The position numbers and the translations under genes are program-made. A DNA stretch of 64,000 nt from Williamsia sp. 1135 (GTDB lineage: Bacteria; Actinomycetota; Actinomycetes; Mycobacteriales; Mycobacteriaceae): contig NZ_MJEI01000085.1 in assembly GCF_002095395.1 (NCBI RefSeq), positions 1 to 64,000 on the forward strand, written 5' to 3'. Below the pieces are notes generated by a model. It ran no database searches. It saw nothing but the letters and a program-made list of their open reading frames with translations, and was not told the DNA's origin. Numbering within the stretch: position 1 is the stretch's first letter; every line of letters begins with the position of its first letter. Below, one piece after another: positions 37,157 through 47,824 of this stretch.

Positions 37157-37786
37157 TCAGGCAGGCACGATGAGGCCGGAGCCCTGTGCCTGAGCCTTGG
37201 CGAAACGCTCGGCGGCGTCGGCCCAGTTGACCACGTTCCACCAAGCCTTGACGTAGTCAGGCTTGACGTTCTGGTAGTCGAGGTAGAAGGCGTGCTCCCA
37301 CATGTCGAGCATGACGATGGGGATAAAACCAACGGAAGTATTTCCGTGCTGATCGGTCAGTTGCTCGATCAGGAGCTTGCCTTCGATGGTGTCGTAGCCC
37401 AGGATCGCCCAGCCGCTGCCCTGCAATGTGGTGGCTGCGGCGGTGAAGTGCGCCTGGAACTTGTCGAACCCGCCGAACTGATCGTCGATGGCTGCGGCGA
37501 GGTCACCTTCTGGCTTGTCGCCACCGTTGGGCGACAGGTTCTTCCAGAAGATCGAGTGGTTGGTGTGCCCGCCGAGGTGGAAGGCCAGGTTGGCCGACAG
37601 CTGGAAGACCTTGTCGGCGATGGTGCCGTCTTCACGAGCAGCCGCCAGCTTCTCAACTGCAGTGTTCACGCCCTTGACGTAGGTGGCGTGGTGCTTGCTG
37701 TGGTGCAGCTCCATGATCCTGCCGGAGATGTGCGGCTCGAGAGCTGCGTAGTCGTAGTCCAGATCCGGCAAGGTGTATTCAGACAC
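37157..37786 (-). CDS. sodA: superoxide dismutase (Fe/Mn)
   Basis: A 209-aa enzyme that dismutates superoxide. Metal ligands are His28 ([11 protein letters not shown]), His77, Asp161 and His165 ([12 protein letters not shown]). His147 in DQHGN corresponds to the position that influences Fe versus Mn use; M. tuberculosis SodA, its closest recalled relative, also has His there and uses iron. No signal peptide, as in mycobacteria where SodA is still exported. The GTG start has GAGAGGA 6 nt upstream. Confidence 0.96.
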
Positions 37787-38363: not shown

Positions 38364-39890
38364 TTGGCACGCCCGACTGCGGCGCAGCTGTACGCCGCCT
38401 ACGGTGACAACGCCGACAGCGACGTCACCCTTCGCCTCCTGCGCTCGCGAAACGCGGTTCCTTACCTCGCGATCATGGCTGCCCGGCTGGCCGATGGTCA
38501 GGTCGACGGCGACCATTTGAGTGCGGGCGTGGAAAAAGACCTCGCAGATCTGGCCGACCATTGGCTGCAGCGCGGCTGGGAGCTGCCCACCGCGGACGAC
38601 CTGCTCGACCGCTGGGTGCGCGCGGGGTATCTGGCCCGCACCCTCGTGACCGACACCCAGATCGAGCGGTACCAGCTCACGCGCGGGGCCACCCAGGCCA
38701 TCGCCCAGGTACAGGCAGTGCGCCAGAACCGCACGGTCGCGACCGAAACGGTGCTCGAGCTGGTGATGTCGCGATTGTCGAACATCGCGGTGTCGATCAA
38801 TCCCGATCCAGGTGAGCACATCCGTGACATCGATCAGAAGCTCAGCGAATTGACTGCCCGCAGAGCAGAACTCGCCGCCGGCGCGATTCCGGCGGTGGAC
38901 ACCCGCCGGGTTCTCGACGACATCAGGATGGTGAGTTCGCTCGCCGAACGGATGCCGGCAGACATCATCGGCTACGGGGAGAAGATGCGGGAGAACTCTC
39001 GTGCCCTGCTCACCAGCGGCCTCGACGCCGAGCAAGGGTCTCACGCGGACGTGCTCAACCGGATGTTCGACGGCCACGATGCGCTCGCCGACTCGGACGA
39101 GGGCAAGGCGTTCGACACGTTCTACACCCTGATCGCCGACCACCGGCTTCGCGAGGATCTCGAGGCGAGTATCGCGGCGATCGCGTCCGGGCTACCCAAC
39201 CTGCCCCACGACCTGCTCGACACCCTCACCGGATTCATCGACCGGATGTGGGACGAAGTGCAGTCGGTCGACGAGGTGCGGGGGCAGGTCTACCGCCGGA
39301 TCAACACGTTCGTCAAGGACGGCGACTTCCTGCACTACCGGGCGCTGCGTAGCCAGATCTCCGACGCCCAGCGCGCCGCCGCCGCCGCGTTTGTCCATGC
39401 GGGTCCGGGCAAGGACATGGGCATCGCCGTTCCGATGAGCGCTGCAAGCTCCAATTCTGTTGGAGCGCTGGTCTTTCACGACGGGATCATCGATTCACCC
39501 GGTGCGGTGGCCGACACCGCGGGTGAGATCAGGATCGACCCGGCCGACCTGGTCGGTGTGGAGTCGATCGACTGGCACGCCCTGACCGATGCGGTGAACG
39601 ATGCCATCGCATCGGGACCCGCCGGTATCGACGAGGTCCTGGCATTGCTGCCGACCGCGCGGACCGGCGATGTGATCGGGATCTGGTCGCTGGCGCAGCG
39701 GCACGGTGCGACCGACGACACCCGCGCCGAGATCACCGTCCTGGCTCACACGGCCCGCGGTCTACGTGAGATCACCATGCCTGCAGTGCTTTTCACGCAC
39801 TCGCTGCCCGACCCCATTACCGCGCAGCCACATGAGGTGATGCACTTGCTGGACGAGCCAGACGAAGCGGGACAGAAGGTGGTCAGGTGA
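38364..39890 (+). CDS. jetA: JetA/MksF-like kleisin (DUF3375)
   Basis: A 508-aa kleisin subunit of a Wadjet-type condensin that recognises and removes circular plasmid DNA. DUF3375 features: a helical start (AQLYAAYGDNADSDVTLRLLRSRNA), a winged segment ending ERYQLTRGATQAI, and a long helical middle (VLDDIRMVSSLAERMPADIIGYGEKMRE). Start: TTG 38364 has GGAGG 8 nt before it; upstream in-frame codons have no ribosome site and code for Cys-rich, non-family sequence. It overlaps jetB by 4 nt (GTGA). First gene of jetA-jetB-jetC. Confidence 0.9.
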   Translation: MARPTAAQLYAAYGDNADSDVTLRLLRSRNAVPYLAIMAARLADGQVDGDHLSAGVEKDLADLADHWLQRGWELPTADDLLDRWVRAGYLARTLVTDTQIERYQLTRGATQAIAQVQAVRQNRTVATETVLELVMSRLSNIAVSINPDPGEHIRDIDQKLSELTARRAELAAGAIPAVDTRRVLDDIRMVSSLAERMPADIIGYGEKMRENSRALLTSGLDAEQGSHADVLNRMFDGHDALADSDEGKAFDTFYTLIADHRLREDLEASIAAIASGLPNLPHDLLDTLTGFIDRMWDEVQSVDEVRGQVYRRINTFVKDGDFLHYRALRSQISDAQRAAAAAFVHAGPGKDMGIAVPMSAASSNSVGALVFHDGIIDSPGAVADTAGEIRIDPADLVGVESIDWHALTDAVNDAIASGPAGIDEVLALLPTARTGDVIGIWSLAQRHGATDDTRAEITVLAHTARGLREITMPAVLFTHSLPDPITAQPHEVMHLLDEPDEAGQKVVR

Positions 39891-40672
39891 GTACTCCGGA
39901 AGAGCCGACGGGCGAGCAGGACATCCGGGAGCAGGAAGGCGAAGACCTGTTCGTGGACGATCCGGGTGCATTGACCGAACCATCGGTCGATCTGTCGCAC
40001 TTCGCCTTCGACGGCTCGGAGCCGGTCGGGACGATCAGCGACCCGCAGGTCGACGCGCGGTTCGATGGCGACACCTCCGCGCTACCCGCGCCGGTCTGTT
40101 ACGCGCTGCAGGAGCTGGTTGCCGCCGCGCACGTCTCGGTGCGCTCGCGCAACTGGAAGACCATCGAGGTGCACGAAGAGGTCATCAGATCCCGGCTCTC
40201 CGAGCTGAACCTGCAGCTCGAGATCAATCGGGAACACAAGTACGCCTTCACCCGGCAGGTCTCGGAAAACGATCCGAGGCAACGCAATATCCTGCGCGCA
40301 CAGACTCTCACCCTGGCCGCCTCGGTGCTGGCACTGTTCCTCCGGCAGAAGTATCTGACGAGTGCAGATGAGTCGGTGGTCGCAGAACGCGGCGAGATCA
40401 TGGACCACATGCTCACCTACAAGCCGGTGTCGGACACCGACGAGGCCGGGTTCATCAAGCGTATCGATGCCGCCATCAACCAACTGGAGTCGCGCAAGAT
40501 CATCCGCGCACTTCCGGGCACCGATCGTTACGTGGTGCACGGGGTGATCGCGTCGTTGCTCGGGCCGGAGCAGGTCGCTGCGTACACCGAGGCCTATCGG
40601 CGACTCGCCGGGGAGCATGCCGAAGACGGGACCGACCTGACCGAGCTCGACGACCGGGAGCGCACGCCATGA
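39887..40672 (+). CDS. jetB: JetB/MksE-like KITE subunit (DUF4194)
   Basis: A 261-aa protein. An acidic, disordered N-terminus of about 65 residues precedes the DUF4194 winged-helix pair: LQELVAAAHVSVRSRNWKTI, then LAASVLALFLRQKYL and GEIMDHMLTYKP. In the Wadjet complex this dimer bridges the kleisin and helps hold DNA. Both ends overlap neighbours by 4 nt (GTGA and ATGA), so jetA, jetB and jetC are made in fixed proportion. Confidence 0.9.
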   Translation: MSTPEEPTGEQDIREQEGEDLFVDDPGALTEPSVDLSHFAFDGSEPVGTISDPQVDARFDGDTSALPAPVCYALQELVAAAHVSVRSRNWKTIEVHEEVIRSRLSELNLQLEINREHKYAFTRQVSENDPRQRNILRAQTLTLAASVLALFLRQKYLTSADESVVAERGEIMDHMLTYKPVSDTDEAGFIKRIDAAINQLESRKIIRALPGTDRYVVHGVIASLLGPEQVAAYTEAYRRLAGEHAEDGTDLTELDDRERTP

Positions 40673-43600
40673 CCGAGATCCTCGAGAAGAACGAGCCGGC
40701 GGTGGCGGGTAAGCGCACCATGAACATCGGTCAATTCCGCCTTACCCGTATTCAATTGGTGAACTGGGGCACGTTCGACGGTTACAAGGATTATCCGATC
40801 GACGAGCGCGGCGTGATGCTCACCGGACCGTCGGGGTCGGGTAAGTCGTCGATGATGGACGGTCACTCGGTGGTCTTGCTGCCCACCTACGACCAGGTGT
40901 TCAACGCCTCCGCCGATCTGTCCGCGAAGGGCGCGAAGAAGGCCGCTCGTTCCATGGCCGATTATGTCCGTGGGGCATGGGCCGAGAACGATGACCGCTA
41001 CAACCAGTCGCAGGTGCAGTACCTGCGGGCCGACGGAGCCACGTGGTCGGCGATCGCCGCGACCTACGACAACGGTGCCGGCTCGTCCACCACGGCGGTG
41101 GCCATCAAGTGGTTCCCGGGTTCGGGTACAGACGGCAGTTCGCTGCGTTCCTGGTATCAGTTGCACACCGGACATTTCGACCTGCTGTCGCTGAACGTCT
41201 GGGCGCAGAGCGGTTTCGACATCCGCAGGTACCGCGCGGCGAATCCGGCGGTGGAGTGCTTCGACGTGCAGAGTGCGTATCAGGAGGCCTTGCGGCGCCG
41301 GGTCGGTATCGGCCAGTCGTCGGCCGCGCTGTCTTTGATGGGCAAGGCGAAGGCGATGAAGAACGTCGGCGACCTCAACCTGTTCATCCGTACCTACATG
41401 CTCGACCGGCCGGAGACGTACGCGAAAGCGGAACGGCTGGTGGAGAACTTCACCCAGCTGGACGAGGCCTACCAGGCTGCCGCCCGCGCCAACGCGCAGG
41501 AGCAGGTACTGCGTCCCATCCCTGACGCTTGGGACACCTATTGCAGCGCAGAAGAATCGACGACCCGCGCGGGGACTCTGCTGGGTCCTCCGATGCGTGC
41601 GTTCATGCGCGAGCACCGGATGACGCTGCTGCAAGCGCGCCTGGACCAGATCGACACCGACCGTGAGCGTCTCGACAACGAGGTGGCCAATTGGGAGAAC
41701 CTTGCCGACGAGCGCGAGGAGCGCCACACGTCGCTGCGTGATCAACTGACCTCGGAGAAGGGCGAGCTGACCACCCTCGAATCCGAGCTGAAATCGTTCG
41801 AGCAGCAGGTCACTGCGCGGAACCGGGCGTACGAGCGGTATGCGACCCTGGTCGGTGGCCTCGGGGAACAGACCCCGGAGACGCAGGACGAGTTCGCGGC
41901 GTTGCGGTTGCGGGCCCCCGAAATCGCTCGTGCGGCACGAGAATCCGCAGACAAGCTGGCCACCACGGCGCACAGCTTCTTCGCTGCGGAGACCGATGCC
42001 CGCCGCGAGTTCGAAGCCGCGGTCGAGGAACTCGCCAGCCTCAACACCCGACGATCCCTGTTGCCCCGCGAGGTCTTGGGCCAGCGGGACGGGATAGCCC
42101 AGGCCACGGGTGTGCCCGCCGAAGACCTGCCGTTCGCCGCGGAGCTGATCGACGTCGATCCGGCCGAGAAGGATCGGTGGGCCGGTGCCGCCGAGCGGGT
42201 GCTGCGGGGGTTGGGCATGACAATGCTCGTACCCGAGGCGCACCGGACGACGATCGGTGACTTCGTGAACCGCACGAATCTCGGTGGGGTCCTCGAATAC
42301 CGTGTTTATCAGAACCATTCATCCGGCGGCGCTGATCCGGTTCCGGGTTCACTGGCGGAGAAGCTGCTGGTCGACGAACGCCATCCGGCAGGCGGCTGGC
42401 TCGCGGGTGTGGTGGCGCGGAGCGCGGAACACATCTGTGTCGATCTCCCGGCGCAGCTCGACCAGCATCCACTCGCCGTCACACCGCAGGGCCTGGTGAA
42501 GTCGGGGCGAGACCGATTCCGCAAGGACGATCGACGCTCGGTCTCCGATCGCACGCAGTGGATTCTCGGATCGAACACCGACGGCAAGCGGACCGCGCTC
42601 GAGGAACTGCGCGATCACCGGGAAGCGCTGTTCGCCGAGGCCCGGCAGGCGGCCCAGGACAAGCGAGATCTGTTGGAGGCCAATCGCGAACGCGCGAAGA
42701 ACGCCGACGCGCTCGCGGCGTACGCCTCGTGGGCCGAGCTCAACTGGTGGTCCTCTCGTCGCGACGCCGATGAACTCAACGCCCGGATCGACCGTGTCCG
42801 CGAGAATCGGGTCGATCTCGCAGAACTCGAAGAGCAGGTCGAGATCGCCCGCGCTGACTGGAGAGAGGCCGTGGCCCGGGTCGGTGCGCTCGGTGACCAA
42901 CTGGGCCATGTCGGTTCGGATTGGGACCGGTGGTTTGCCGAAGCCGAACAGGTGAAGGCCGAGAGCACGAAACTCGATGACGCGGACCGGGAGTATCTCG
43001 CGGGTGTGCTCGCGGAGACTCTCGCGGCAGGCGGCAAGACGCTGACCCTCGACAATTACGGCGAGGTGCGCTCGGACCTGCGAAACGCCCTGGAAGCTGT
43101 GGTCGGAAAGGCCAATGCCGAGCGTGACGGCGCGGAGAACCGGATCGTGCGTGCGGGTGAGGCGTTCCTGCGGGAGTGGCCCGAGGCGTCGGCGAACCTC
43201 AGTGCGAGTGTCGAATACGCAGCCGACCTGGTGTCCATCCACCAGAGTCTGGTCGAGCACGGACTGGCCTCGACGCAGCAGCGCTTCCGGCAGCTGATCA
43301 CCACCGACATCAGTCATTCGGTGTCCAACCTGTACAAGGAGATCGCGGACACCAACAAGCGGATCACCCGCGGTATCGCCGAGGTCAACATCGGCTTGCA
43401 GCGGGTCGACTTCAACGAGGACACCTACCTGCAGATCGCCCAACTGCACAACCCGACGGAGGAGTCACGGGAGTTCGCCAAGATCGTCGACTCGATGATC
43501 CGGGATGCTCCGGCGGCCAAGTCCGGCGACGGTGCCGTACTGGCGCGGCAGTTCTATCGCATCCGCGGTCTCGTCGCGCGGCTCACAGGAACCGATGCGG

Positions 43601-44076
43601 AGAACCGCCGCTGGTGCGACAACGTGCTGGATGTTCGCAACAGCTACACCTTCTACGGTAAGGAACTCAGCTCCGGGGCCCCCGCTGACGACCCTCCGGT
43701 ACACACCTACCGCAACACCGCGTCCAACTCCGGTGGCGAGCAGGAGAAGCTCGTCGCCTTCTGTCTTGCTGCGGCACTGAGCTTTTCTCTCTCGCACGGA
43801 GAAGACCACCGACCGGGCTTCGCTCCGTTGATGCTGGACGAGGCGTTCAGCAAATCGGACGAGACCTTCAGCTCGCAATCGCTGCGGGCGTTCGAGCAGT
43901 TCGGTTTCCAACTGATCATCGCGGCCCCGATCCGCATGGTCGGCATCGTCGAACCGTTCATCGGTCAGGTCATCCTGGTGGACAAGCAGACCGGGGAAGG
44001 CGGCGCTCGCTCGGATGCTCGCGCAGCGACCTTCGGTGAGCTCGCAGCGGCCCGGGCAACCGGCGGAAGAAAGTAG
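40669..44076 (+). CDS. jetC: JetC/MksB-like SMC ATPase
   Basis: An 1135-aa SMC-like motor. Walker A GPSGSGKS is at 53-60, a long two-stranded coiled coil with a hinge lies between about 270 and 950, the ABC signature SGGE is at 1021-1024, and Walker B LMLDEAFSKSD has Asp1057-Glu1058. All catalytic residues are present, so it should hydrolyse ATP and extrude DNA loops. The ATG overlaps the jetB stop. Type I Wadjet operons next encode JetD (DUF3322/DUF2220), the toprim nuclease, but here a different gene follows. Confidence 0.93.
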   Translation: MTEILEKNEPAVAGKRTMNIGQFRLTRIQLVNWGTFDGYKDYPIDERGVMLTGPSGSGKSSMMDGHSVVLLPTYDQVFNASADLSAKGAKKAARSMADYVRGAWAENDDRYNQSQVQYLRADGATWSAIAATYDNGAGSSTTAVAIKWFPGSGTDGSSLRSWYQLHTGHFDLLSLNVWAQSGFDIRRYRAANPAVECFDVQSAYQEALRRRVGIGQSSAALSLMGKAKAMKNVGDLNLFIRTYMLDRPETYAKAERLVENFTQLDEAYQAAARANAQEQVLRPIPDAWDTYCSAEESTTRAGTLLGPPMRAFMREHRMTLLQARLDQIDTDRERLDNEVANWENLADEREERHTSLRDQLTSEKGELTTLESELKSFEQQVTARNRAYERYATLVGGLGEQTPETQDEFAALRLRAPEIARAARESADKLATTAHSFFAAETDARREFEAAVEELASLNTRRSLLPREVLGQRDGIAQATGVPAEDLPFAAELIDVDPAEKDRWAGAAERVLRGLGMTMLVPEAHRTTIGDFVNRTNLGGVLEYRVYQNHSSGGADPVPGSLAEKLLVDERHPAGGWLAGVVARSAEHICVDLPAQLDQHPLAVTPQGLVKSGRDRFRKDDRRSVSDRTQWILGSNTDGKRTALEELRDHREALFAEARQAAQDKRDLLEANRERAKNADALAAYASWAELNWWSSRRDADELNARIDRVRENRVDLAELEEQVEIARADWREAVARVGALGDQLGHVGSDWDRWFAEAEQVKAESTKLDDADREYLAGVLAETLAAGGKTLTLDNYGEVRSDLRNALEAVVGKANAERDGAENRIVRAGEAFLREWPEASANLSASVEYAADLVSIHQSLVEHGLASTQQRFRQLITTDISHSVSNLYKEIADTNKRITRGIAEVNIGLQRVDFNEDTYLQIAQLHNPTEESREFAKIVDSMIRDAPAAKSGDGAVLARQFYRIRGLVARLTGTDAENRRWCDNVLDVRNSYTFYGKELSSGAPADDPPVHTYRNTASNSGGEQEKLVAFCLAAALSFSLSHGEDHRPGFAPLMLDEAFSKSDETFSSQSLRAFEQFGFQLIIAAPIRMVGIVEPFIGQVILVDKQTGEGGARSDARAATFGELAAARATGGRK

Positions 44077-44079
44077 ATC

Positions 44080-45162
44080 GTGGCCCGCCAGATCACGCTC
44101 AGACAGTGGAATCGGACGCTGCTGCAGCGCCAGCATCTACTCGAGCGCGTCGACGAGGACATCCTGGAGGTGCTCGATCGCTGCGTCGGACTGCAATCCC
44201 AGGATCCTCGCGCCGCGTTCTACGGATTGTGGTCCCGTATCTCCGATTTCGATCCGCTGGATCTCGACGATCTGATGACGGACCGCGAAGTGATCCGAAT
44301 GGCGTTGCTGAGGAGCACCGTCTTCCTGATGGATGCCGAGGACGCCCGCTGGGTCCGTCCGCTCGCCCAGGCGAGTCTGGACGGTGAACTACGGTCCAAC
44401 CACGCGAAAAGGCTTGCCGGTGCCGATCTTGCCGACGTCGCCGAATACGGTCGGCAATTGCTCTCGGGCACACAGCTTCCCGTCAAGTCGCTGAAGGACT
44501 CGTTGGCGGCTCGCTGGCCCGATGCCGACAGTTCTTCCCTGGTCACCGTGGTCCGATGCCTGGAGCCCCTGGTGCAGGTGCCACCGAGGGGGACCTGGAC
44601 GGGTTCGGCGACCACCACTTACAGCCTCTACGACGAGTGGTGCGGCCCCGGCGAATCGTCGGTCACGGGCGAGGACGCGATCAAGGATCTGATCAGGCTG
44701 TACCTGCGCGGGTTTGGGCCGGCCAGCATCAAAGGCATCCAGACCTGGGCCGGCATGACCAGGCTGCGGCCGATCGTGGAGGCCATGGAAGCCGACTGGG
44801 AACTGGGGAAGCTCGAAGGTCCGGATGGCGAAGAGCTGTTCGACATCGACGGACTCGCGCTGGCCGACGAGGACGCCGCGGCGCCGGTGAGGTTGGTGGC
44901 CCCCTTCGACAACATCGTGCTGGCCCAGGGCCCCGATCGTGGGCGGGTCGTCGACGACGACATCCTCAAGAAGCTCGCCACCCCGAACGGCCGCTCGCCT
45001 GGTTTCGTGCTGATCGATGGTCGCGTCGCAGGCATGTGGCACCCGCGCAAGAACGGCAAGGCCACCACGATCGAGGTGGATGTCTTCTCGAAGATCTCCG
45101 CCGCCGATCGTCGGGCAGTAGAGGACGAGCGGGAGCAGCTGGTCGATTTCTGCAACACCTGA
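44080..45162 (+). CDS. winged-helix HTH_42 protein, AlkZ-type DNA glycosylase candidate
   Basis: A 360-aa protein of the HTH_42 family, whose known members AlkZ and E. coli YcaQ/AlkX unhook DNA interstrand crosslinks. A QxQ motif, Gln39-Ser-Gln41 (GLQSQDPRAAFYGLW), sits where AlkZ has its catalytic QxQ. Tandem winged helices follow (LLRSTVFLMDAEDARW; LRGFGPASIKGIQTWAGMT) and a C-terminal barrel (FVLIDGRVAGMWHPRK). GTG 44080 starts 3 nt after the jetC stop with GGAAGAAAG upstream inside jetC, so it belongs to that operon. It stands where JetD is expected. Linking it to plasmid defence is inference. Confidence 0.85.
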   Translation: MARQITLRQWNRTLLQRQHLLERVDEDILEVLDRCVGLQSQDPRAAFYGLWSRISDFDPLDLDDLMTDREVIRMALLRSTVFLMDAEDARWVRPLAQASLDGELRSNHAKRLAGADLADVAEYGRQLLSGTQLPVKSLKDSLAARWPDADSSSLVTVVRCLEPLVQVPPRGTWTGSATTTYSLYDEWCGPGESSVTGEDAIKDLIRLYLRGFGPASIKGIQTWAGMTRLRPIVEAMEADWELGKLEGPDGEELFDIDGLALADEDAAAPVRLVAPFDNIVLAQGPDRGRVVDDDILKKLATPNGRSPGFVLIDGRVAGMWHPRKNGKATTIEVDVFSKISAADRRAVEDEREQLVDFCNT

Positions 45163-45250: not shown

Positions 45251-46003
45251 ATGACGCGTTTGCAGGACAAGGTCGCCCTGGTCACCGGCGGGGCCTCCGG
45301 AATCGGTGAAGCCACTGTTCGCAGGTTCGTCGACGAAGGCGCTCGAGTGGTCTTCACCGATGTCGCGGACGGTACCGAGCTGGCCGGAGAGACCGGGTCG
45401 ACGTTCCTGCGGCAGGATGTCGCAGACCCCGAGACCTGGACCGAGGTGGTGCGCTCGATCGAAGAGCAGCACGGCCGCCTCGACGTCCTGGTGAACAATG
45501 CCGGGATCGTCGGCAATCAGTCCATCGTCGATGCCGACCTGGAGACGTTCAACCGGGTCTTGGCCATCAACGTGACCGGCGTCGCCCTCGGAACCCAGGC
45601 CGCCATCACCAGCATGAGCAAGAGTGGCGGCGGATCGATCATCAACGTCGCGTCGACCACGTCGTTCCTCGGCCTGGCCTTCGACGTCGCGTACACGGCG
45701 TCGAAGCACGCTGTCGTCGGCATCACCCGGTCGAGCGCCGCGTATTGCGCCCAGGAACGGTTGGGCATCCGGGTCAACACCCTGCACCCGGGCGCCATTT
45801 ACACGGCGATCTTGCAGGGGCACGTCGAGAAGCGGCCCGAATTGTTCGAGGTTTTCAGCAATATGGCCCCGGTGGGACGTATGGGTGATGCCTCGGAGGT
45901 GGCATCGATGGCGGTCTACCTGGCCTCGGACGATTCGACTTTCTCGACAGGCGCCCAGTTCGTCGTCGACGGCGGCATCGTCAACACCCACCCCTCGATG
46001 TAG
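45251..46003 (+). CDS. SDR-family oxidoreductase
   Basis: A 250-aa short-chain dehydrogenase with TGGASGIGE at 12-20, NNAG at 82-85, catalytic Ser135, Tyr148 and Lys152 (YTASKHAVVG). Asp37 after strand 2 (FTDVAD) suggests NAD+. It resembles 3-alpha/20-beta-hydroxysteroid dehydrogenases and cyclohexanol dehydrogenases; the substrate is unknown. GGAGG lies 7 nt before ATG 45251. It has its own 88-bp leader, so it is not clearly part of the jet operon. Confidence 0.88.
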   Translation: MTRLQDKVALVTGGASGIGEATVRRFVDEGARVVFTDVADGTELAGETGSTFLRQDVADPETWTEVVRSIEEQHGRLDVLVNNAGIVGNQSIVDADLETFNRVLAINVTGVALGTQAAITSMSKSGGGSIINVASTTSFLGLAFDVAYTASKHAVVGITRSSAAYCAQERLGIRVNTLHPGAIYTAILQGHVEKRPELFEVFSNMAPVGRMGDASEVASMAVYLASDDSTFSTGAQFVVDGGIVNTHPSM

Positions 46004-46021: not shown

Positions 46022-46777
46022 TCAGTCGTCGGGCAAGTTGCCGGAGCGCGGATTTCGGTGGGTGATGCAGTATCGGCGACCGATCGGATCCGCCATCACC
46101 GTCCAGAAGCGTTGGTGCTCGAGCACCCTCGCACCCCAGCCCTCGTGCCGGGCAACCTCCTCCTCGGGATGTGTGCTCGCCAGGTCGAGATGACCCCCGA
46201 CCTCGGGTGATCCCACCCGTTGCAACAAGATGCGTAGCGGCATGTCCTTGGGTCGCTGCAGGTTTCGGAACTCCGGCATCACCCCCTGGCGCCATGCCCA
46301 GTTCGTCAGGGTCGCCCAGAACGCGCATTCGGCGTCGAACGCCGCCGCGGGCACATCGATGCACAACTGGTCGATGATGCTGATGGTGTCTCCGGGCCAG
46401 CGAATGGGCCGCGAACGTTCGTGCTCGCCCTGCCAGGGCACCAGGCAGAACGGGAAGCCGGCAGGCGAGCGCAAGACCACGAGGCTCTTGCTCTCCGAGA
46501 CCACTTTCGCGCCGAGCGCTTTCGCGTGGGCGGTGGACTCGCGTAGATCGTCGACGTGGATGTCGAGGTGAACGCCGCCGGGTCCTTCTTTGACGCGTTG
46601 CACTCTCAGGTGTGGATCACCGTTGAAGGGTTCCAGCGACGCGAACTCCCGGTCCACCCCACGGGCCGGCGAGACGGTGCTGCCGGCGATGGCACGCCAG
46701 AACGTGACCTCGGGCCCGAAGCTGTCGGCAGGCAGGTCGAGGAACGCGGTGAGCCATTTGATCGCCACGGGCGTCAC
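46022..46777 (-). CDS. VOC-family protein with two glyoxalase domains
   Basis: A 251-aa protein with two tandem vicinal-oxygen-chelate domains of about 120 residues each. The first has KWLTAFLDLPADSFGPEVTFWRAI-type start and GGVHLDIHVDD; the second has IDQLCIDVPAAAFDAECAFWATL and GHLDLAS. Metal-ligand His/Glu positions look partly retained (HLDIHVDD, HLDLAS). The family covers dioxygenases, glyoxalases and antibiotic-binding proteins, so no reaction is assigned. Convergent with the SDR gene, 18 bp apart. Start GTG 46777. Confidence 0.82.
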   Translation of the reverse strand: MTPVAIKWLTAFLDLPADSFGPEVTFWRAIAGSTVSPARGVDREFASLEPFNGDPHLRVQRVKEGPGGVHLDIHVDDLRESTAHAKALGAKVVSESKSLVVLRSPAGFPFCLVPWQGEHERSRPIRWPGDTISIIDQLCIDVPAAAFDAECAFWATLTNWAWRQGVMPEFRNLQRPKDMPLRILLQRVGSPEVGGHLDLASTHPEEEVARHEGWGARVLEHQRFWTVMADPIGRRYCITHRNPRSGNLPDD

Positions 46778-46951
46778 CGGGCCTCGGTCTGCGCGTCGTC
46801 ACTGGCGCTGACGGGCGATACGGGGTGAGTGCGGCCGGGCGGCGGAACGATGACCATGACGCTCAGTCTTGCAGTAGCGGCATTTCGCGCGGTCGGTACG
46901 GCGGCCTCGGCAGCAGCGGTCCTGACCGACGTCCCGCATAGGCTGGCAGAC

Positions 46952-47824
46952 ATGGGTCCATTCAAGAAGATCGCAGAGAAGTTGGCCAAGGCACACGCTG
47001 ACAAGGTCGCGGTGGTGCGTCTCGATGGCACGATCGGCGTCGGCGGCACGGGTCGTGGTGGACTCACTGCCGACAATCTGGAATCCAACCTGAAGAAGGC
47101 GTTCGACACGGAGCGGCTCAAAGCGGTTGTTCTGGTGATCAACTCACCGGGCGGATCGCCGGCCCAGTCGGAATACATCGCCGAGCGGATACGGCAGCTG
47201 TCGTCGGAGAAGGGTGTTCGGGTCCTCGCATTCTGCGAAGACGTTGCTGCCTCCGGGGGCTACTGGATCGCGTGCGCAGCCGACGAGATCTATGCGGCAC
47301 ACACCTCGATGGTCGGTTCCATCGGTGTGGTGTCGTCCGGCTTCGGGGTCCAAGAGCTGATGGGCAAGGCAGGTGTCGAACGGCGTGTGTACACCGCGGG
47401 AGCCAACAAGGCCCGGCTCGACCCGTTCTTGGAGGAGAAGCCCGAGGACGTGGAGTGGCTGCGTGGGCTCCAGCAAGATCTGCACGCCGCCTTCATCACC
47501 TGGGTGCGCCAGCGGCGCGGTGCAAAGCTTGTCGGTACCGACGCGGAACTCTTCAGCGGCGACGTCTGGATCGGGCGCGGCGCCCTCGACGTCGGTCTGG
47601 TTGACGGTGTCGGCGTGCTGCGGTCCGTGCTGGCCGAACGTTATCCCGATGCCGAGCTGGAAGTGATCGCGTCCCCCAAGCCTCTGTTTGCGCGACTGAC
47701 CGGTAGCGTCGCGTCTCCGGACGCAGCCCTGTCGTCGTTCGCCTCGGACGCTGTCGACGGGATCGTCACCGGTGTCGTGGCCGCCATGGAACGACGCGCC
47801 CACTGGACGCGATACGGCCTGTAG
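46952..47824 (+). CDS. S49-family peptidase (SppA/SohB-like)
   Basis: A 290-aa ClpP-fold serine peptidase. Family landmarks: VVLVINSPGGSPAQSEYI, the catalytic-Ser segment EDVAASGGYWIACAADEIYA, MVGSIGV, and a Lys in ANKARLDPF that fits the Ser-Lys dyad. SppA proteins degrade cleaved signal peptides at the membrane. This short form lacks the duplicated domain and an evident membrane helix. Start: ATG 46952 follows TAGGCT by 7 nt (leaderless pattern). An in-frame extension to 46829 or 46850 would add a hydrophobic N-terminus (MTMTLSLAVAAFRAVG...), so an anchored form cannot be excluded. Confidence 0.83.
   Translation: MGPFKKIAEKLAKAHADKVAVVRLDGTIGVGGTGRGGLTADNLESNLKKAFDTERLKAVVLVINSPGGSPAQSEYIAERIRQLSSEKGVRVLAFCEDVAASGGYWIACAADEIYAAHTSMVGSIGVVSSGFGVQELMGKAGVERRVYTAGANKARLDPFLEEKPEDVEWLRGLQQDLHAAFITWVRQRRGAKLVGTDAELFSGDVWIGRGALDVGLVDGVGVLRSVLAERYPDAELEVIASPKPLFARLTGSVASPDAALSSFASDAVDGIVTGVVAAMERRAHWTRYGL

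Follow-up and report, generated by a model that had tools for sequence, protein, structure and literature searches.

Does a DNA glycosylase gene that occupies the place of a nuclease gene in a defence operon mark an exchange of effectors, or did the two genes become neighbours in another way? This question is raised by a four-gene arrangement in Williamsia sp. 1135, located in a window of 64,000 nucleotides (nt) that comprises positions 1 to 64,000 of contig NZ_MJEI01000085.1. There, the jetA, jetB and jetC genes of a type I Wadjet (MksBEF) operon are followed not by jetD, reported to encode the cutting subunit in Wadjet (PMC10586767), but by a gene for an AlkZ-like DNA glycosylase of the HTH_42 family (hereafter alkZ). 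The original prediction for this DNA considered either a new defence variant in which the glycosylase replaces JetD or a condensin-repair module. Our analysis makes it likely that a nuclease-free, MksBEF-like complex has instead become lodged before a resident base-excision gene with which it is co-expressed, and that no effector swap took place. We infer that a JetABC operon without a nuclease was inserted between msrA and the resident alkZ of a sodA-msrA-alkZ locus in the Williamsia lineage, and that alkZ has become the last gene of the jet operon, expressed on a single transcript. JetABC would then act on the chromosome as an MksBEF-type condensin, a kleisin-bridged structural maintenance of chromosomes (SMC) motor that binds DNA and extrudes it in loops with the known cutting subunit absent, and the AlkZ-like protein would keep its own role in the base excision repair of bulky or crosslinked alkylated bases, without physical coupling to the complex.

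The open reading frames (ORFs) agree with the predicted layout, in which jetA/jetB and jetB/jetC overlap by 4 nt each and alkZ starts 3 nt past the jetC stop (Table 1). The arrangement of the genes suggests that jetABC and alkZ are co-expressed. A promoter scan (0 found, 0.9 expected) and a terminator scan (6 found, 3.4 expected) were uninformative. JetA, JetB and JetC were all assigned to type I by PADLOC, and JetC matched solved JetC chains with an E-value of 1.9e-55 to 8as8_A. For comparison, we used 20 Williamsia-type genomes, comprising nine of the same genus (g1), all eight of g18 and one matching genome each of g7, g12 and g16. The JetC Walker A (GPSGSGKS, residues 53-60 in the window), signature (NSGGEQ) and Walker B (LMLDEAF) motifs are present in all 20, the window included, in keeping with the predicted integrity of the catalytic residues. 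JetA shares 63-99% identity with named relatives, including W. soli, W. limnetica and W. muralis. Ratios of nonsynonymous to synonymous substitution rates (dN/dS) against genomes G001, G002 and G007 indicate purifying selection on JetC (0.02-0.03), JetB (0.03-0.04) and JetA (0.04-0.05), the last being calculated on the longest ORF with up to 58 extra codons upstream of the TTG start. The jetA frame also has a longer ORF from 38190, but the ORF of W. muralis-type relatives opens exactly at the position equivalent to 38364.

The operon was correctly predicted to be JetABC without JetD. No match to JetD_C (PF09983) was identified in the operon or elsewhere in the 5.98-Mb genome, in a search in which the Corynebacterium glutamicum control was positive, although a strongly diverged JetD could escape the model; whole-genome searches of the Williamsia-type set gave 0 matches in 20. 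As no jetD was matched elsewhere in the genome, the idea of a replacement was not refuted on that ground. All the genomes examined from g1 (9), g18 (8) and Tsukamurella (16) carry JetABC, which is more core-like than expected of patchy defence. On the basis of this distribution and of a canonical SMC encoded in the same genome (SMC_prok_B, 980 bits, contig C95, searched in this genome only), JetABC appears by analogy to resemble Pseudomonas aeruginosa MksBEF, reported to serve chromosome segregation (PMC7485682), more than a patchy defence system.

The fourth gene was predicted to encode a winged-helix HTH_42 protein with an AlkZ-like QxQ motif, and the family assignment and the motif are supported by a domain search and by sequence matches to a solved AlkZ structure. 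PF06224 spans the full length of the protein (profile positions 1-329 of 329). The sequence match to the AlkZ structure 5uuj was 0.0021, and a profile match extended nearly end to end (3.4e-16). The QSQ motif (residues 39-41, positions 44194-44202) aligned opposite the QAQ of AlkZ in this structure. In 14 Williamsia-type rows both glutamines are invariant and the middle residue is serine in 12 and alanine in 2; serine is not aliphatic, and the catalytic motif criterion for AlkZ-like (AZL) glycosylases is (Q/H)-aliphatic-Q. An AlphaFold model of the glycosylase, built from 11 sequences, was too poor for a fold search (mean predicted local distance difference test score of 57) and was set aside. 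The gene is under purifying selection, with dN/dS of 0.09-0.10 against the same three genomes, about four times that of JetC (3.6 to 4.5 in the three pairs). In a tree of 38 rows from one careful search, no long stem leads to the Williamsia copies, which form no supported clade. Apart from the window this tree has 37 rows, and 36 of them keep Q-[S/A]-Q; only L121 of genus g9 does not. Given the absence of a long stem and the unchanged motif in the jet-linked copies, nothing in these sequences points to a new job after linkage to jet. Known AlkZ relatives are reported to target alkylated or crosslinked bases (PMC9040887, PMC13303869), and the Williamsia enzyme most likely excises such bases as its relatives do.

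The order jetABC-alkZ was found in all 20 Williamsia-type genomes, under five genus labels (g1, g7, g12, g16, g18). Taken with dN/dS values of roughly 0.02-0.10 across the four genes, this conservation of order exceeds chance. The flanks are more variable. A sodA gene lies upstream in 20 of 20 loci, and in six (G014, G019, G107, G123, G161, G172) an additional ORF between sodA and jetA was identified as msrA (PF01625, 1.6e-60 to 1.9e-56 for four copies). No msrA was detected at the remaining 14 loci, and the genome of Williamsia sp. 1135 keeps an msrA on another contig. Downstream of alkZ, a glyoxalase gene is in reach in 15 of the 20 loci and an sppA-like gene in 13.

The origin of alkZ is indicated by the sister genus g9, which we infer to be Gordonia. 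Among 401 genomes of the family, an alkZ profile identified the 20 Williamsia-type genomes and 52 of g9, of which 51 scored 487-571 bits and the last 355 bits, after which scores dropped to at most 325 bits. A JetA match at 1e-10 is absent from 17 of these g9 genomes. The other 35 have JetA, and in none of them was a link between jetABC and alkZ seen: in 12 the two genes share a contig with a separation of no less than 2.4 Mb, and in 23 they lie on different contigs. In all 17 g9 loci that were read, the order is sodA (minus strand), msrA (plus) and alkZ (plus). A rhodanese-type gene follows in 17 of these loci, a glyoxalase gene in 13 and an sppA-like gene in 8. Thus, jetABC of Williamsia lies within a sodA|msrA-alkZ locus, and an insertion in the Williamsia lineage would be the simplest explanation. 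The G+C content of jetABC matches that of its flanks and gives no sign of recent import. In one g9 copy, L121 (G103:C55:867-1931), neither glutamine of QxQ is retained and the branch is longer, yet the gene still lies in the sodA-msrA locus.

The history of JetD was approached through the nearest other JetABC clade, that of Tsukamurella, with 55-65% identity. JetABC was present in all 16 Tsukamurella genomes of the collection, with a JetD match in 0 of 16 and an alkZ-like gene at 1e-40 in 0 of 16. In a JetC tree of 46 chosen rows, a quick tree that carries a long-branch warning, Tsukamurella and Williamsia were joined with 99% support in the Shimodaira-Hasegawa-like approximate likelihood-ratio test. 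Two JetD-bearing operons of g22 (L088 and L089), the nearest such operons seen at 43-51% identity, adjoin this pair, and nine JetD-less operons (g9, g29, g31) lie outside. Because the Tsukamurella sister clade has neither JetD nor a close alkZ homologue, JetD was probably already absent when the two JetABC lineages split, before the pairing with the glycosylase. Either two losses, or one loss and a regain in g22, would account for the tree, and prior absence is most simply assumed in both. The JetB N-terminus, where an IFDR motif is reported to contact JetD (PMC10586767), was considered as a marker of lost JetD binding. This was dropped, as an FDGD-containing motif is alike in JetB with JetD (L088, L089) and without it.

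In Tsukamurella, a PIG-L gene, identified by Pfam for L042 only, lies 29-76 nt after jetC in four loci (L010, L038, L039, L042) and 3.8 kb off in two (L014, L040), indicating that in this genus the genes next to JetABC are not, as a rule, fixed in place. Plasmid carriage near the clade was seen in one Tsukamurella record, and the JetC relatives of 13 other plasmid records had less than 60% identity. This record, NZ_LR134444.1 (L128), is the 22-kb circular 'plasmid 2' of T. tyrosinosolvens and carries a 513-nt DUF3375 piece at the record start, jetB, and jetC annotated in two pieces; the record may represent a chromosomal piece or a decayed copy.

In order to place the locus within the class, JetA loci outside the Williamsia type were surveyed. 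A first set of 33 was extended by 60 (44 from a class-wide search and 16 found earlier) to 93 loci, corresponding to 92 places as L014 and L041 coincide; one, L146, has JetA without a JetC match. The class-wide search returned 57 rows, of which 44 were newly read loci and 9 were already in the set; the other 4 derive from two genes that are broken into pieces. An AlkZ-like gene was found at 0 of the 92 places, so that the jetABC-HTH_42 order, proposed as a possible new variant to be sought across actinobacteria, was, among the loci read, seen only in Williamsia-type genomes. JetD was present in 20 of the 60 further loci (L131-L190, Actinomycetia) and absent within about 4 kb downstream of jetC in 40; for the 44 class-wide loci, the corresponding counts were 20 and 24. 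At the family level, JetD is missing from the 12 kb around 91 of 123 JetABC operons, a count in which the clade of the window is over-sampled, as the profile was built on its JetA, and from which seven second-piece rows (five for JetA, two for JetD) were dropped. A JetC match is present in 39 of the JetD-less loci, and in these no single family is common in the JetD slot. Three clusters of 4, 2 and 2 rows were obtained, the largest of which reads like a wrong-strand frame, and in 16 other JetD-less loci no gene directly after jetC was common across genera. JetABC without JetD is a frequent state in the class, and of the lineages examined, Williamsia alone has one family consistently in the slot. 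The survey also yielded a genome (G058 of g29, contig C1) with a JetD-linked JetABC at 5.52 Mb (L028) and a distant JetD-less one at 0.22 Mb (L027), a natural comparison pair, and a decayed Wadjet (G033:C15:74393-74867; L047, L081) in which a JetD remnant with an internal stop lies beside a JetA fragment.

These results do not bear out the idea that the glycosylase replaced JetD, given the JetD-less and alkZ-less Tsukamurella operons, the alkZ of g9 at sodA-msrA, the unchanged motif and absence of a long branch in the jet-linked copies, and the lack of alkZ at the 92 other JetA loci. A related pattern had been imagined for relatives, in which the HTH_42 gene follows unrelated genes and jetABC is usually followed by jetD. 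The first half was observed, with the g9 orthologue following msrA in 17 of 17 loci, but the second was not, as the closest jetABC operons are mostly without jetD. Considered on its own merits, a Wadjet variant in which the glycosylase takes the place of JetD as effector and attacks captured plasmids could draw on a gene slot and overlap geometry similar to those of jetD, on the intact JetABC motifs and on the existence of defence glycosylases such as Brig1, which is of a different superfamily (PMC11078745). We regard it as very improbable, however, as the loss of JetD came earlier than the pairing or independently of it, alkZ is a resident of the sodA-msrA locus, the alkylated or crosslinked targets reported for AlkZ relatives (PMC9040887, PMC13303869) are missing from plain plasmids, and the genes occur in every examined genome of the clade, unlike defence. 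Even less credence is due to a decaying remnant, in which JetABC lost its nuclease and its function and alkZ is a chance neighbour. The lack of a JetD match would agree with this, but strong purifying selection on all three jet genes refutes it, and the ATPase motifs are intact in 20 of 20 with the operon kept in all Williamsia-type and Tsukamurella genomes examined.

A condensin-repair module deserves closer attention, in which, after a chance joining, JetABC stalls at crosslinked chromosomal DNA or delivers it to the AlkZ-like enzyme. Such a module would explain why the coupling persists in all 20 genomes despite turnover of both outer flanks and why alkZ is under purifying selection, and the sodA/msrA neighbourhood suits damage repair. 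We nevertheless consider it unlikely, as the g9 orthologue manages without a jetABC neighbour, linkage brought no acceleration or motif change, the higher dN/dS of alkZ is unlike that of a tightly bound subunit and none of the other JetA loci has the gene. The original prediction of a module acting on crosslinked chromosomes draws its support from the conserved gene geometry. That JetABC and the glycosylase form one unit, in which extrusion stalls at interstrand crosslinks or bulky adducts and the lesion is handed to the AlkZ-like enzyme, is likewise unlikely; if true, bacteria would have in it a counterpart of Smc5/6-linked repair, one that arose from a disarmed Wadjet inserted into a stress-repair locus.

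Several observations also weigh against a nuclease-free condensin that merely adjoins a resident repair gene. All 20 genomes have a possible start for alkZ at -4 to +16 nt relative to the end of jetC, whereas msrA, the glyoxalase gene and sppA are present at some loci and missing from others. This cohesion is above that usual for passive neighbours and could reflect a joint function; the unbroken junction may mean that alkZ relies on the jet promoter, or it may stem from selection for joint action. The chromosomal role proposed for a nuclease-free actinobacterial JetABC is an analogy to P. aeruginosa, and the nuclease-bearing MksBEFG of C. glutamicum is reported not to organise the chromosome (PMC7083940). 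A core role fits less well with g9, whose more distant JetD-less JetABC is patchy (34 of 52 alkZ-bearing genomes). An insertion into the common ancestor followed by loss in g9 would fit as well as an insertion into Williamsia and is indistinguishable from it, and either history makes jetABC dispensable for alkZ. Finally, JetABC may lack the known cutting subunit and still be served in trans by a nuclease unrelated to JetD_C.

The features of the locus are collected in Table 1. The short-chain dehydrogenase gene between alkZ and the glyoxalase gene is shared by the genome of the window (G000) and two close relatives (G001, G007) and was not found there in the other 17 of the 20 genomes.

Table 1. 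Genes of the jetABC-alkZ locus and its flanks, with positions in the window and supporting matches.
Feature	Coordinates	Strand	Evidence
jetA / mksF, kleisin (DUF3375)	38364..39890	+	PF11855 1.3e-94; PADLOC JetA1 863 bits; TTG start
jetB / mksE, KITE subunit (DUF4194)	39887..40672	+	PF13835 3.3e-31; PADLOC JetB1 256 bits
jetC / mksB, SMC-like ATPase	40669..44076	+	AAA_29 1.4e-20; SbcC_Walker_B 5.5e-20; PADLOC JetC1 1072 bits
AlkZ-like (HTH_42) DNA glycosylase gene	44080..45162	+	PF06224 1.8e-78; GTG start
sodA (Fe/Mn superoxide dismutase), left flank of putative ancestral stress locus	37157..37786	-	PF02777 3.3e-36; PF00081 1.2e-31
Short-chain dehydrogenase gene	45251..46003	+	PF13561 5.8e-60
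Glyoxalase-like gene, right flank of putative ancestral locus	46022..46777	-	PF18029 2.5e-38
sppA-like S49 peptidase gene, right flank	46829..47824	+	PF01343 1.1e-27

An insertion next to a repair gene already in place can thus look like an exchange of effectors in a defence operon. In actinobacteria, JetABC often occurs with no adjoining JetD, and operons of this sort may have been included when Wadjet systems were counted there. The JetABCD of g22, the JetABC of Tsukamurella and the JetABC-alkZ of Williamsia form a natural series for asking what a disarmed Wadjet does.

A search of the open-licence PMC literature found no report that links an HTH_42 glycosylase to Wadjet or to DUF3375, and the locus is best compared with known systems part by part. 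The type I Wadjet or MksBEFG systems (JetABCD, including MksBEFG of C. glutamicum and EptABCD of Mycobacterium smegmatis) are alike in the JetA, JetB and JetC families, gene order, overlapping starts and ATPase motifs, but the Williamsia operon differs in having no match to the Toprim nuclease JetD/MksG in the operon or genome. In this respect it is closer in kind to the nuclease-free MksBEF of P. aeruginosa PAO1, a kleisin-KITE-SMC trio reported to occur without MksG beside a canonical SMC (PMC7485682, PMC7083940), a likeness of gene content, and it differs from that trio by running into a glycosylase gene. The AlkZ-like protein shares with the AZL HTH_42 glycosylases AlkZ, HedH4 and TxnU2/4 a full-length PF06224 domain, a QxQ motif at the AlkZ position and the profile match to 5uuj, and is set apart by serine or alanine as the middle motif residue and by the sodA-msrA context of the gene in g9. 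Brig1, likewise a DNA glycosylase, is described as an anti-phage factor, with Wadjet named in its gene neighbourhood; however, it belongs to the uracil-DNA-glycosylase superfamily and not to HTH_42, and is reported to account by itself for immunity to T4 (PMC11078745).

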